DNA of 64,000 bases from Sphingobium xenophagum NBRC 107872 (GTDB lineage Bacteria; Pseudomonadota; Alphaproteobacteria; Sphingomonadales; Sphingomonadaceae): contig NZ_BARE01000001.1 in NCBI RefSeq assembly GCF_000367345.1, positions 186,001-250,000 of the forward strand, read 5' to 3'. The position numbers were made by a program, and so were the translations under genes. The notes below the pieces were generated by a model that was not told the origin of the DNA, did not search any database, and saw nothing but the letters and a program-made list of their open reading frames with translations. How positions within the stretch are numbered: position 1 is the stretch's first letter; every line of letters begins with the position of its first letter. Positions 5,540 through 10,032 of the stretch are shown here, one piece after another.

Positions 5540-6010
5540 TTACTTTTCGATCACATCATGGCGCATCGGCGCGAGTTTGGAGAGAAAGCGGTTTTGCGCC
5601 TGGAAGCTGATCCCTTCCTCCCTCATCGCGCGCTGGAGCGTTTCGACGAGGCGGTTCATGTCCGCCTTCTGCACGCCCAGATCCTTGTGCGCGCTGGCCA
5701 TGTCCCGCCCGCTATAGGTGCAGCCGGCATTCAGGATGAAACAGAATTGCTCGAACAAGGTACGCTTCAGGCGAACCTTGTCATGATTGGCGAAAATCTC
5801 GCCAATCACCGGGTCGGCGAAATTGATCGCGACGAAGCGATCGACGATGCGGCGGATGCCGTCCTGCCCGCCAAACGCCTTTGCCATGCCGTCGCCCGTA
5901 AAAGGCACGGCCCCGGCGTGGCGACTGTCGGCGACATAAGGGTCCACGGCGGCCTCCCCCGGCAAAGCATAGGGCGCCTGCAACAAGAGCAGCGAGAGGA
6001 TGATGGACAT
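5540..6010 (-). CDS. Group 1 truncated hemoglobin with signal peptide
   Basis: A 156-residue protein with a hydrophobic N-terminus (MSIILSLLLLQAPYALPG) that looks like a signal peptide, then a truncated globin. The core starts FGGQDGIRRIVDRF; YSGRDMASAHKDLGV carries the proximal heme histidine at residue 108. Known group 1 truncated hemoglobins bind O2, NO or related ligands, usually in the cytoplasm, so a predicted exported form is unusual. I chose the second ATG (6010) because AAGGA sits at good spacing before it; the ATG at 6016 is too close. It lies 13 bases after the DUF3034 gene, probably one operon. Confidence 0.88.
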   Translation of the reverse strand: MSIILSLLLLQAPYALPGEAAVDPYVADSRHAGAVPFTGDGMAKAFGGQDGIRRIVDRFVAINFADPVIGEIFANHDKVRLKRTLFEQFCFILNAGCTYSGRDMASAHKDLGVQKADMNRLVETLQRAMREEGISFQAQNRFLSKLAPMRHDVIEK

Positions 6011-6023
6011 GGGCATGCGTCCT

Positions 6024-6899
6024 TTAGAAGGCGGTCTGAAGCTGGAGAAACACGCCGCGCTGCTTCTTCACCGTGGCGATCGAGCCCAGGTCGGCATAGG
6101 CGATGGTCGCGGTGACATTGCGGCTGATGGCGACGGCGGCAAAGGCGTCGAACCAGTCATCTTCCCGCGCGATGTTCAGATTGTCAGGCTTGCGCCGATA
6201 TTCCCCGCCGATCGCGATGCGGCGCGACAATTGCCAGGCGGCCGATCCTTCAAACTGAAGCGTATGATTGCCCTGCTTGCCGCCGCCAAAGCCCAGCAGC
6301 CCCATCTGGTTCGCCTTGGTCAGGCGCGCGGTCGCCGACAGCAGGATGGAGCGCGCGAGGAATAATTTGCTGACCGACGCATAATAATCGACGCCTTCGT
6401 CCCCTTTGGCCCCCACCGCCCGGACGATCGCACCCTGATTATTATTCTTATACTGAACGCCGACCGCGATGGCTGGCAGCCGGTCATAGACCAGATCGCC
6501 CGCAACCCGGATTTTCGCGCCGAAAATATCCTGCGAAAAGGCGAAATCCTTGCCCAGCCCCAGCGCCGCGCCAATCTCGTTCGTGTTGAAATCCTGATGC
6601 GTGTAGCTCAGCTCGATGCGATCGCGGATGCCGATCGCGACGCCAGCGCTTTGATAGTCATAATCCTTGACCTCGACCAGCGTGCCATGAGCCGACATGC
6701 CGAAGCCGTCCGATGTTTCATTGCCGGCGATCACCGCCCAGGGAGTCAGGCCACCGCCCGACGCCCCTTCCAGCGAACTGATGCCATTGGTCAGCAGCAA
6801 TTTGCCACCATTGCGGATCGGTCTGGCCATGCCCTGTTGCGGGGACAAAGCAGCCAGCGCGAGCATGATGCACAGGAAAGGACGGAAACAGGTCATCAT
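6024..6899 (-). CDS. DUF3034 family outer-membrane beta-barrel protein
   Basis: A 291-residue protein with a signal peptide (to about residue 25, ending GMA). Alternating amphipathic strands run throughout, and the protein ends in QLQTAF with a terminal phenylalanine, the usual signal for outer-membrane insertion. GKLLLTNGISSLEGASGGGL near the mature N-terminus fits the DUF3034 family as I recall it; function is unknown. It is first in the leftward operon with the truncated hemoglobin and diverges from the cupredoxin and GGDEF-EAL genes, suggesting a shared role. Confidence 0.83.
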   Translation of the reverse strand: MMTCFRPFLCIMLALAALSPQQGMARPIRNGGKLLLTNGISSLEGASGGGLTPWAVIAGNETSDGFGMSAHGTLVEVKDYDYQSAGVAIGIRDRIELSYTHQDFNTNEIGAALGLGKDFAFSQDIFGAKIRVAGDLVYDRLPAIAVGVQYKNNNQGAIVRAVGAKGDEGVDYYASVSKLFLARSILLSATARLTKANQMGLLGFGGGKQGNHTLQFEGSAAWQLSRRIAIGGEYRRKPDNLNIAREDDWFDAFAAVAISRNVTATIAYADLGSIATVKKQRGVFLQLQTAF

Positions 6900-6973
6900 C
6901 GGCAGATAGGCAAATCATGGTTAAAATAATGTTTCCCGTCCCGTCAGCGTGAAAATGCGGTCCATAACGAACT

Positions 6974-6992
6974 AAACATTTGTTCAATGTTT
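6974..6992. promoter_or_regulatory. Inverted repeat in divergent promoter region
   Basis: AAACATT-TGTTC-AATGTTT is a perfect 7-bp inverted repeat with a 5-base spacer, the clearest symmetry in the ~110 bases between the DUF3034 and cupredoxin genes. It could be an operator serving both directions. No regulator gene is adjacent. Confidence 0.45.
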
Positions 6993-7011
6993 GCTTTTAC
7001 CAACAGTAACC

Positions 7012-7626
7012 ATGAACGCGCCACGCCTTTTCCTCGCCGCCCTCTCCCTGATCGCCAGCCCGGCCATGGCGGGCGACATCGATCTTCGGATCGTCGATGC
7101 CGCTGGCCGCCCGGTCAGCGATGCGGTCGTCACCGTCCGTCCCGCCGGCGGCATCCCGGCTGGCCCGATCCGCTTCCCATGGGGTACGACCATGGTGCAG
7201 CAGAATATCGCCTTTTCGCCCCATGTGCTGATCGTACCCGTCGGTGCGACGGTCAAATTCCCCAACAAGGACAAGGTGCGACATCATGTCTATTCCTTCT
7301 CCAAGGCGGCCAAGTTTGAAATCAAGCTGTTCGGACAGGATGAAAGCCGCAGCTACACCTTCACCAGTCCGGGCGCGGTGGCGCTGGGCTGCAATATTCA
7401 TGATGCCATGAGCGGCTTCATCAAGGTGGTCGACACCCCCTTCGCCGCCAAGAGCAATGCCGCCGGACAGGCGCGGATAAACGGGCTGGGGACCGGCACG
7501 GCGCGGGTCACGGTCTGGCACCCGTTGCTCAAGGGCAAGGATAATGAAATGCTGATCAACCTGCCCATTCCGGCGAGCGGCATGGTGAGCAAGACCGTGC
7601 CATTGGCGTTGCGCGCGTCCAAATGA
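7012..7626 (+). CDS. Periplasmic cupredoxin-like protein (methylamine-utilization-protein type)
   Basis: A 204-residue protein with a signal peptide ending SPAMA (residue 20). An N-terminal carboxypeptidase-regulatory-like beta domain (DIDLRIVDAAGRPVSDA) precedes a cupredoxin fold. The probable type 1 copper ligands are His91 or 92 (VRHHVYSF) and Cys127, His130 and Met133 in GCNIHDAMSGF. Databases label relatives methylamine utilization proteins, but no mau genes are nearby. The ATG at 7012 precedes the signal peptide directly; a TTG at 6991 would only add seven residues. It overlaps the next gene by ATGA. Confidence 0.85.
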   Translation: MNAPRLFLAALSLIASPAMAGDIDLRIVDAAGRPVSDAVVTVRPAGGIPAGPIRFPWGTTMVQQNIAFSPHVLIVPVGATVKFPNKDKVRHHVYSFSKAAKFEIKLFGQDESRSYTFTSPGAVALGCNIHDAMSGFIKVVDTPFAAKSNAAGQARINGLGTGTARVTVWHPLLKGKDNEMLINLPIPASGMVSKTVPLALRASK

Positions 7627-9935
7627 GCCTACCCCTTCGCCTGAAAAGACGGTGGCTGCGCTGGCGGCGCGCGGCACAGTCGACCCTGACGATCAGGATG
7701 ACCTTGTTCTACGGCGCGCTGTTTCTGGCCGTAATGACGCTCACGCTTTTGGGCACGCGCCAGGCCATCGAAAGCTATGCCGAAAATGCCATCCGGCATG
7801 AGATGAATGTCGGCAGCGCCCTGTTCGACCGGATTTCGGCGATGCAACGGCGTCAACTGAGCCAGGGGGCCGACGTACTGGCCAGCGATTTCGGCTTTCG
7901 CGAGGCGGTGGGCACCAATGACGCCCCGACGATCGAATCCGCGCTGCATAGCCTCAAGGGCCGCTTCCAGCTCGACCATGCAATGTTCGTCGGGGTCGAT
8001 GGCACGGTGGTGGGCGACCTTCAACATCTTGGCCGTACCGATCAGGACCAGCTTTACGACGCGCTCGACGCCGGTCGGATGCAGGGCGTGGTGCGATGGG
8101 GCAGCGAGGGTCATATCGTGGCAGCCGCGCCCGTCCGCGCGCCGATACTGACCGGCTGGGTCGTCTTTGCCCGCAACATGGGCCCGACCGACCTGAAGGC
8201 GCTGGCGAAACTGTCCTCGATCGACCTGCATCCGCAACTCATGCCGCTGGCACGTGTCGCCCGGACGGACACGGCCAATGGTGGCCTGCGCGAAGTCGTG
8301 CGGAACGGCGAACTGATGCTGGTGCAGACCCGGCCCGTTGAAACGCTGATAGAGACTGCGCCGGAAATGCTGGTGCTGGAATATAGCCTGACCCGCGCGA
8401 TGGCTGGCTATGCGCCGATACTGTGGGCCTTGTTCGGTTTCGGCGCGGTTGGCGGCGTATTGGCCGTGGCCGGCGCATTTGCCGCATCGCGCAGCCTGTC
8501 GCGGCCGATCGTCGCGCTGGAAGCCGCCGCCCGCAAGGTGAGCGCAGGCGAACATGCGCAGGTGAAGGTCGAAACGCGCGACGAAATCGGGCGGCTGGCG
8601 CAAAGCTTCAACCGCATGGTCGATGCGGTCGAGGCGCGCGAGGCGCAGATTGCGCATATGGCCTTTCACGACGCGCTGACCGGCCTGCCCAACCGGGCGA
8701 TGCTGCGCGAACAGGTTGCGCTTGGCCTCACCCGCGCCGAAGGCGGCAACCTGATGCTGTTCTGCATCGACATCGACAATTTCAAATCGATCAACGAATC
8801 GCTTGGCCATCCGGTTGGCGACGCCCTGTTGTGCGAAGTCGGCGCACGACTGAAGGCGACCTGCCCCAGCGGCTTTGCCGCCCGGCTGGCAGGCGATGAA
8901 TTTGCCATCAAGCTGCGCGCCGGGGGCCAGACAGCCGATCAGGCCGGTCGCGCCATCGTCGCGGCGCTGGCCGAACCGTTCGACATAGATGGTCATCGCA
9001 TCATCGTCAGCGCCAGCGTGGGCATTGCGCTCAGCCCGCAGGACGGCGCGGACGCAACCAGCCTGCTCAAAAATGCCGAACTGGCGCTGCACCGGGCCAA
9101 GAGCGAGGGCAAGGGCAGCCATCGCTTCTTTGAAAGCGCCATGGATGCAGAGGCGCAGGCCCGCCGCGCGCTGGAAACCGACCTGCACGACGCGCTGCGC
9201 AATGGCGAACTGGCGCTGCATTTCCAGCCGCTGTTCGGCCTGTCGCAAAATCGCGTGACAGCGTTCGAGGCACTGCTGCGCTGGCAGCATCCCACGCGCG
9301 GCATGGTGTCGCCGGTCCATTTCATCCCGCTGGCGGAGGAAACCGGCCTCATCATCCCGATCGGCGAATGGGCGCTGCATGAAGCCTGCCGGATCGCCGC
9401 GACCTGGCCCGACCATATCCGCGTGGCCGTCAACATATCGCCGATCCAGTTTCGCAGCCCCAATCTGGCCGCCGTCGTCCTTCAGGCGCTGGCGCGGTCG
9501 GGCCTTGCGCCCAACCGGCTGGAACTGGAGATCACCGAAAGCCTGTTCATCGACAATGTCGAGGCGACGCTATCCTCGCTCCACAGCCTGCGGGCGCTGG
9601 GCGTGCGCGTGGCGCTCGACGATTTCGGCACCGGCTATTCCTCGCTCAGCTATCTGCGCAGCTTCCCGTTCGACAAGCTCAAGATCGACCGCAGCTTCAT
9701 CGTCGATCTGCTGGAACATCAGGGCGCAACCGCCATCATCCGCGCGATTACGACGCTGGCCGACGCGCTGGGCATCGAAACGACGGCGGAGGGCGTGGAG
9801 CATAGCGACCAGCTCGACATATTGCGCGCCGAAGGATGCGGCCAGATCCAGGGCTATCTGTTTAGCCGCCCGATCCCGGCGCAAGATGTCGACGCGCTGC
9901 TGGACAAGCTGGACGGCGCGCGAAAGGCGGCCTAG
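7623..9935 (+). CDS. Membrane GGDEF-EAL protein with periplasmic sensor and HAMP
   Basis: A 770-residue protein with a membrane segment near 26-44, a periplasmic sensor to about 258, a second membrane segment at 260-285, HAMP to about 338, GGDEF at about 346-505 and EAL at about 520-765. The cyclase signature is AGDEF (residues 423-427) instead of GGDEF, with no RxxD inhibitory site before it. The EAL domain looks complete: EALLRW, VNISPIQF, ELEITES, ALDDFGTGYSS, KIDRSF and TAEGVEH. It may make and/or break c-di-GMP. It overlaps the cupredoxin gene, so the periplasmic protein may be its input partner. Confidence 0.93.
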   Translation: MSLPLRLKRRWLRWRRAAQSTLTIRMTLFYGALFLAVMTLTLLGTRQAIESYAENAIRHEMNVGSALFDRISAMQRRQLSQGADVLASDFGFREAVGTNDAPTIESALHSLKGRFQLDHAMFVGVDGTVVGDLQHLGRTDQDQLYDALDAGRMQGVVRWGSEGHIVAAAPVRAPILTGWVVFARNMGPTDLKALAKLSSIDLHPQLMPLARVARTDTANGGLREVVRNGELMLVQTRPVETLIETAPEMLVLEYSLTRAMAGYAPILWALFGFGAVGGVLAVAGAFAASRSLSRPIVALEAAARKVSAGEHAQVKVETRDEIGRLAQSFNRMVDAVEAREAQIAHMAFHDALTGLPNRAMLREQVALGLTRAEGGNLMLFCIDIDNFKSINESLGHPVGDALLCEVGARLKATCPSGFAARLAGDEFAIKLRAGGQTADQAGRAIVAALAEPFDIDGHRIIVSASVGIALSPQDGADATSLLKNAELALHRAKSEGKGSHRFFESAMDAEAQARRALETDLHDALRNGELALHFQPLFGLSQNRVTAFEALLRWQHPTRGMVSPVHFIPLAEETGLIIPIGEWALHEACRIAATWPDHIRVAVNISPIQFRSPNLAAVVLQALARSGLAPNRLELEITESLFIDNVEATLSSLHSLRALGVRVALDDFGTGYSSLSYLRSFPFDKLKIDRSFIVDLLEHQGATAIIRAITTLADALGIETTAEGVEHSDQLDILRAEGCGQIQGYLFSRPIPAQDVDALLDKLDGARKAA

Positions 9936-9965: not shown

Positions 9966-10032
9966 CCGTTCGTTTCGAGCGAAGTCGAGAAACGTAGCGC
10001 ACAAGTTTCTCGACTTCGCTCGAAACGAACGG
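9966..10032. repeat. Perfect 28-bp inverted repeat between convergent genes
   Basis: Two exact 28-bp arms (9966-9993 and 10005-10032) flank an 11-base loop; each arm contains CGTTTCGAGCGAAGTCGAG or its complement. It lies between the convergent GGDEF-EAL and nucleotidyltransferase genes and shares its core with the repeat at 624-678. It probably acts as a transcription barrier on both strands. Confidence 0.75.

Follow-up and report, generated by a model that had tools for sequence, protein, structure and literature searches.

Why should a truncated haemoglobin, a protein of the DUF3034 family, a cupredoxin and a membrane receptor of the GGDEF-EAL type be encoded side by side? The question is raised by Sphingobium xenophagum NBRC 107872, in a 64,000-nucleotide stretch of contig NZ_BARE01000001.1 (positions 186,001–250,000; assembly GCF_000367345.1), here referred to as the window. 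An original prediction, made from the sequence alone, had placed these four genes in a divergent cluster at 5540–9935, an arrangement with which the open reading frame (ORF) list and the sequence agree. Comparison with other genomes inclines us, if only slightly, to the view that the four genes form one envelope-spanning signalling unit, in which the cupredoxin would be a dedicated partner of the receptor and change its output. Within this view, the narrower claim of a tie between a predicted periplasmic copper protein and a receptor acting on bis-(3′-5′)-cyclic dimeric guanosine monophosphate (c-di-GMP) has strong support, both from gene linkage and from the presence of the same cupredoxin beside receptors with other outputs.

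The window cupredoxin scores 17.5 bits with the Pfam Copper-bind profile, below the cut-off of 21.2. Its AlphaFold2 model (mean predicted local distance difference test, pLDDT, 96) finds its best PDB matches in Foldseek among cupredoxins (amicyanin, 1.9e-06; NirK, 2.5e-06), and the type 1 copper ligands, H91, C127, H130 and M133, are present in 33/33 cluster relatives, with the same His-Cys-His-Met set in 91/91 cupredoxins of a wider set. Modelled fold and invariant ligands confirm it as a type 1 cupredoxin, predicted to bind copper, and its N-terminus suggests export to the periplasm. Amicyanin, pseudoazurin and plastocyanin, which are electron carriers, share the fold and the ligands; the window protein differs from them in that additional strands flank its copper domain on either side, and in its linkage to signalling receptors. 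Three distant cupredoxins (82–92 bits; L290, L292 and L295), from a neighbour scan covering three of the 11 places in that score range, adjoin genes for cytochrome c or a MauG-like di-haem peroxidase, and are a possible electron-transfer outgroup.

The receptor combines a periplasmic dCache_3/CHASE4-like sensor with HAMP, GGDEF and EAL domains. In Pfam, dCache_3 lies just over its cut-off (25.9 against 25.7 bits) and HAMP well over (48.3 against 25), GGDEF and EAL also exceed theirs, and CHASE4 falls below (20.6 against 26.2). Among 31 aligned receptors, a set that leaves out the distant EAL protein of L047, the sensor motif DFGF (residues 89–92) keeps D89, G91 and F92 in every member and F90 in 30; the looser form D-[FY]-[GA]-F is seen in EAL, cyclase and histidine-kinase receptors. 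Residues with established catalytic roles in EAL domains (E549, N604, E636, D666, D667, K687, E723 and Q743) are likewise present in 31/31, whereas the exact GGDEF motif occurs in 9/31; the window has AGDEF, a variant that can be active. Because of this difference, the conserved chemistry of the receptor would be c-di-GMP hydrolysis by the EAL domain, and cyclase activity does not appear to be a conserved trait. The earlier proposal that a periplasmic signal is passed to c-di-GMP is borne out in part, in that a copper protein is linked to a c-di-GMP receptor, with the EAL domain, and not GGDEF, as its conserved chemistry.

The pairing of cupredoxin and receptor extends well beyond this cluster. 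A survey of 80 cupredoxin places combined 57 from a phylum sample of 398 genomes (sample 1; at least 130 bits) with 23 new ones from a second sample of 369 genomes belonging to the class of G154 (at least 110 bits), weaker matches being dropped, including that of G021 at 117 bits in sample 1; neighbour genes at 17 loci were picked with a codon score. A receptor lies within about 1.3 kb of the cupredoxin at 67/80 places, and its output is GGDEF-EAL at 54, a class III cyclase at six, a Ser/Thr kinase at six and a histidine kinase at one. The GGDEF-EAL total consists of 53 counted by script and L273, moved by hand, where EAL is split over frames; at three of these places a gene of the type C family described below lies between cupredoxin and receptor. 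Of the cyclase receptors, five (L216, L217, L266, L275 and L279) have the order dCache_3-HAMP-Guanylate_cyc, with dCache_3 at up to 48.7 bits, and L276 has no reported dCache_3. The histidine-kinase receptor (L271) is of HisKA-HATPase type, with dCache_3 and HAMP both below cut-off. Ser/Thr kinase receptors (Pkinase) are found at L223, L281 and L283–L287; HAMP is below cut-off in L284, and L283, L285 and L287, in which dCache_1 is below cut-off and dCache_3 absent, were counted as receptors on HAMP and adjacency. At one further place a kinase lies about 2 kb away, and L218 runs off its contig.

Besides L273 and L218, 11 of the 80 places have no receptor. Six of them (L047, L212, L213, L215, L228 and L234) belong to five genomes (G015, G126, G142, G158 and G375) in which a receptor stands elsewhere, with no cupredoxin in the fetched stretch; orphan cupredoxin and orphan receptor in the same five genomes fit separated partners. 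Three others (L065, L232 and L235) are extra copies in genomes that hold a complete pair, and the genome of L282 has a kinase receptor at L284. Counted by genome in sample 1, cupredoxin and sensor profiles are both present in 48, cupredoxin alone in three (G019, G154 and G233), sensor alone in one (G119), and neither in 346, so that 48/51 cupredoxin genomes hold the sensor and 48/49 sensor genomes the cupredoxin; Fisher values for such co-occurrence ignore kinship and serve as description. The sensor profile matches 56 places in 49 genomes, and by coordinates a cupredoxin adjoins 47 of them. At L334, L335 and L336, sensor places with no cupredoxin in 13 kb, the GGDEF-EAL match is short or in pieces; these may be further receptors that use this sensor. 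At L041 and L042 the cupredoxin is flanked on its other side by an additional full-length GGDEF-EAL receptor, which carries this sensor as well.

The outer-membrane neighbour also varies. DUF3034 adjoins the cupredoxin at 40 of the 80 places, a porin-like family of about 400 residues (type B) at 17, a family of about 300 residues (type C) at seven and a Porin_5 protein at one, with none recognised at 15; the idea that DUF3034 always accompanies the cupredoxin is thereby ruled out. The 13 type B members compared all match one another by BLAST, and a search of the DUF3034 loci with the type B profile gave no match; types B and C are both likely to be barrels. No globin of the cluster's subfamily was found within 6 kb of any type B or type C place, and cupredoxin and receptor stay paired at most of these places; the idea of the globin as an essential part of the unit was dropped. 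Mapped on the cupredoxin tree, the output label requires six changes or more and the barrel label 13. A cupredoxin and a dCache-HAMP sensor that remain constant, while output and outer-membrane protein vary, give the pattern expected of a receptor's periplasmic partner.

The four-gene set of the window is one form of this pairing. DUF3034 is present in 39/398 genomes of the phylum sample, at 40 places including one broken second copy, and the surroundings of all 40 were taken (about 17 kb each, shorter at contig ends). A globin gene adjoins it at 40/40 places (in pieces at the broken one), a cupredoxin occurs around 33 and a GGDEF-EAL match around 32, and at 30/40 the last two lie within 1.3 kb of each other. 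The layout is divergent at 7/7 places of the window's class; outside that class, 22/33 places have a co-directional set, cupredoxin-EAL-DUF3034-globin, and L053 has the order DUF3034-globin-cupredoxin-EAL, as does Caballeronia sp. SBC2, where the genes are annotated as DUF3034 family protein, group 1 truncated hemoglobin, methylamine utilization protein and EAL domain-containing protein. The two gene pairs are joined in three distinct orders across the sampled loci. The best 80 named loci, mostly from Alphaproteobacteria, contain all four genes in 63 cases, and nine of the other 17 are stretches of less than 12 kb. The neighbourhood comparison suggested with the original prediction has therefore found the linkage conserved, and the four genes do not lie apart in most relatives.

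By genome, DUF3034 is accompanied by the cupredoxin in 38/39 cases (DUF3034 only in one, neither in 346/398) and by the sensor, linked or unlinked, in 37/39 (neither in 347/398). A profile search placed the cluster-type globin subfamily in 39/39 DUF3034 genomes and in 2/359 others, which makes the four-gene linkage more than chance. In G078, a second DUF3034-globin pair (L040, contig C3) is the copy broken by stops or frame breaks. At L281, the neighbours of DUF3034 are a cupredoxin and a Ser/Thr kinase with dCache_3 and HAMP, and no globin of the cluster type was found in 13 kb. A scan of named sequences confirmed at least 586 DUF3034 relatives; the closest named relatives of the window gene are from Sphingobium, where identity across the four best-matching loci is 65–96% (the highest value covering part of the protein). 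Relatives were present in 13 of 72,556 plasmid records, and three stretches of viral contigs matched a barrel pattern, none of which was confirmed as DUF3034.

The window DUF3034 protein matches PF11231 at 316.9 bits (cut-off 25) and has, judged by eye, a signal peptide at about residues 1–25. An AlphaFold2 model of the remainder, built with 50 sequences, has 12 strands (pLDDT 80; predicted template modelling score 0.80), and its best structural matches are FapF (Z 19.4, 14% identity), KdgM (Z 18.8, 11%) and NanC (Z 18.1). This fold match supports an outer-membrane β-barrel, as the original prediction had guessed, and no function follows from it: the barrel resembles the 12-strand channels FapF and KdgM/NanC, but identity is just 8–14%. 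The copper transporter PcoB is also among the matches, at Z 13.3 and below many other channels, and was given no weight as a sign of copper transport. No paper on DUF3034 function was found in the open literature, in which subscription journals are mostly missing. Two literature matches to the name do not concern this family: in the portions available, a retron figure legend reads DUF3037 elsewhere, and a Streptomyces table entry is an actinobacterial membrane protein.

The window globin exceeds the Pfam cut-off for Bac_globin (40.9 against 21 bits), and chains labelled group 1 truncated hemoglobin are among its PDB matches. With the broken L040 copy left out, the proximal histidine (His110) and a pair of cysteines (Cys92 and Cys99) are invariant in 39/39 aligned globins; profile and proximal histidine identify it as a group 1 truncated haemoglobin with predicted haem binding, and a Cys92–Cys99 disulfide, if formed, would fit export. 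The N-termini suggest that these globins are probably exported and periplasmic. A loose lipobox pattern is present in 25/39 (doubtful in two, L037 and L049), none with Asp at +2, and under the lipoprotein sorting rule the absence of Asp at +2 points to the outer membrane, making the exported globin of many relatives a likely outer-membrane lipoprotein; the window globin, with a short hydrophobic N-terminus and no lipobox, is not among the 25. Profile scores are at least 142 bits in the 39 DUF3034 genomes and in G154 and G328, and at most 94 in all others; the threshold was set at this visible gap, which counts as evidence, whereas the high scores do not, the profile having been built from the same DUF3034-linked globins. 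Truncated globins of another kind stand in tandem in many small genomes of one family (f38), at G029:C4:64743-65636 and similar places.

Taken together, these observations suggest a scheme in which the dCache_3-HAMP receptor would have the type 1 cupredoxin as its dedicated partner in the periplasm, and the copper or redox state of the cupredoxin would shift the receptor's output. The simplest mechanism would be docking of the cupredoxin on the sensor in one state and not another, where the state might be copper loading, Cu(I) or Cu(II), or a redox link to the globin. The probable output in the window is c-di-GMP hydrolysis through the EAL domain, with the DUF3034 barrel as the unit's putative outer-membrane channel and the exported globin as a possible gas- or redox-binding accessory. 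The docking, the signal (copper loading, redox state, oxygen or nitric oxide), its direction and the role of the globin are parts that we infer.

Three other explanations compete with this scheme. The genes might encode a unit for uptake or homeostasis of copper or another small solute, in which the barrel admits the solute, the cupredoxin binds it as a cargo handler, and the receptor senses it directly and regulates. We consider this unlikely, though it has several points in its favour: the cupredoxin stands with type B and without an adjacent receptor at 5/80 places, a pair that may have a job of its own; PcoB is among the barrel's structural matches, yet low in their ranking; and a 2026 paper, in the portion available, reports direct copper binding by the CHASE4 domain of the Pseudomonas aeruginosa GGDEF-EAL protein PA14_37690 (PMC13277305). 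The last of these makes copper a reasonable guess as the signal, and equally raises the main rival possibility that the sensor binds metal alone. The five genomes that keep both an orphan cupredoxin and an orphan receptor are more in line with physical partnership than with an accessory role in transport. A very different and, in our judgement, improbable reading is a redox or detoxification enzyme, in which electrons pass between cupredoxin and globin (for nitric oxide dioxygenase, peroxidase or oxygen-handling activity) and the GGDEF-EAL gene shares only their regulation. Group 1 truncated globins are known nitric oxide and oxygen proteins, and the three distant cupredoxins adjoin haem enzymes or cytochromes as such a reading would have it; extracytoplasmic truncated-globin domains of cable bacteria are also described, in the available part of PMC11976967, as possible oxygen reductases. 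The absence of a cluster-type globin near the type B and C genes, at places where cupredoxin and receptor are mostly paired, speaks against it, and an enzyme unit would not lead one to expect a single cupredoxin family beside differing output domains.

It is also conceivable, although we give this little credence, that DUF3034-globin and cupredoxin-receptor are two separate pairs, frequent neighbours with no single common function. Four genomes (G213, G225, G261 and G389) have the two pairs at separate places, and 11 sampled genomes have cupredoxin and sensor without DUF3034; on the other side stand the near-complete presence of cupredoxin and sensor in DUF3034 genomes, when most of the sample has neither, and the joining of the pairs in different gene orders. 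Further observations weigh against the favoured scheme. Linkage gives no direction, and the receptor could sense something else, with the cupredoxin as a co-regulated target. Two genomes (G154 and G328; L229 and L230) hold the cluster-type globin but lack DUF3034; in G078, which has a DUF3034-globin pair, neither cupredoxin nor sensor was found, and G019 (L031) has a cupredoxin with no sensor found. Nine of the 56 sensor places have no adjoining cupredoxin (G015, G119, G126, G142, G158, G207, G225, G375 and G389), and all of these genomes but G119 hold one elsewhere. The sensors of the kinase receptors match the others weakly (30–36 bits at four, none at three), and the Pfam porin matches of types B and C are weak or lacking, all below cut-off. 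In the cupredoxin tree, support is weak for 29/77 inner branches, the kinase group forms a single clade, and the well-supported branches alone leave a single origin of each output possible; nor are the sampled genomes independent of one another.

Envelope-spanning c-di-GMP systems are already known, and the new element would be a copper protein that receptors with four different outputs have as their common partner. LapD/LapG, YfiBNR (TpbB), AwsXRO and MbaA/NspS are envelope-spanning c-di-GMP regulators with a periplasmic partner, some with an outer-membrane component, and the window unit is like them in joining a membrane c-di-GMP protein to a periplasmic partner. We know of none among them that has a copper-protein partner, or a channel and a globin. 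LapD has degenerate GGDEF and EAL active sites, unlike the window receptor with its intact EAL residues. Closer in the sensor are P. aeruginosa PA14_37690/PA2072 (IsmP) and PA14_53310/PA0847, described in the available portion of PMC13277305 as inner-membrane c-di-GMP proteins whose periplasmic CHASE4-type sensor meets copper, iron or haem; in IsmP-type proteins the domain binds the metal itself, whereas the window has a separate cupredoxin gene, a barrel and an exported globin beside the receptor. The truncated globins of cable bacteria, according to the part of PMC11976967 available, lie outside the cytoplasm like the window globin, but are fused to multihaem cytochromes, while the cluster-type globins would be free proteins or lipoproteins. 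No paper linking a cupredoxin to c-di-GMP receptors was found among the matches listed from the open literature, which holds few subscription journals, and none linking a cupredoxin to cyclases in the same, mostly open, literature. The portion available of a survey of β-proteobacterial copper proteins mentions neither EAL nor GGDEF (PMC6769254), and in those of PMC5847120 and PMC7019866 cupredoxin and GGDEF stand in unrelated places.

In the window itself (Table 1), globin and DUF3034 genes are separated by 7 bp, and the cupredoxin and GGDEF-EAL genes overlap by ATGA. A shared divergent promoter region of about 110 bp, as first proposed, holds here, where the intergenic stretch measures 112 bp provided that the cupredoxin starts at ATG 7012 (the best start, with TTG 6991 upstream also possible); it does not hold as a general trait, the divergent layout being restricted to the window's class in the sample. 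The dyad within this stretch, AAACATT-TGTTC-AATGTTT (AAACATT-N5-AATGTTT), was rejected as a shared regulator site, the motif being present in 1/69 compared divergent stretches, that of the window. Just 3′ of the GGDEF-EAL gene, a perfect 27-bp inverted repeat (9966–10032; arms 9966–9992 and 10006–10032) could represent either a terminator or a repeat element; further copies are absent from the window at up to three mismatches.

Table 1. Features of the four-gene cluster, in window coordinates
Feature	Position	Strand	Length	Basis
Truncated globin	5540–6016	-	158 aa	Bac_globin over cut-off
DUF3034	6024–6899	-	291 aa	PF11231 profile, barrel model
Divergent intergenic stretch	6900–7011		112 bp	contains dyad 6974–6992
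Type 1 cupredoxin	7012–7626	+	204 aa	ligands, model, PDB cupredoxin matches
GGDEF-EAL membrane receptor	7623–9935	+	770 aa	Pfam domains, aligned relatives

To our knowledge, the signal is not known for most periplasmic sensor domains linked to c-di-GMP, and a receptor family with a probable partner makes that signal testable. If the scheme favoured here is true, DUF3034 would gain a place, the exported state of the globin would acquire a suggested reason, and the misleading database name of the cupredoxin, "methylamine utilization protein", would be corrected. More tentatively, and with somewhat less confidence than in the unit itself, these cupredoxins may form a general class of periplasmic co-receptors: one family, lying beside interchangeable outer-membrane channels, would drive dCache-HAMP receptors that have exchanged their outputs (c-di-GMP turnover, cyclic-nucleotide synthesis, histidine kinases and Ser/Thr kinases), and periplasmic copper or redox state would be read by a separate protein and not by the receptor. 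Copper proteins would then join the known signalling partners.

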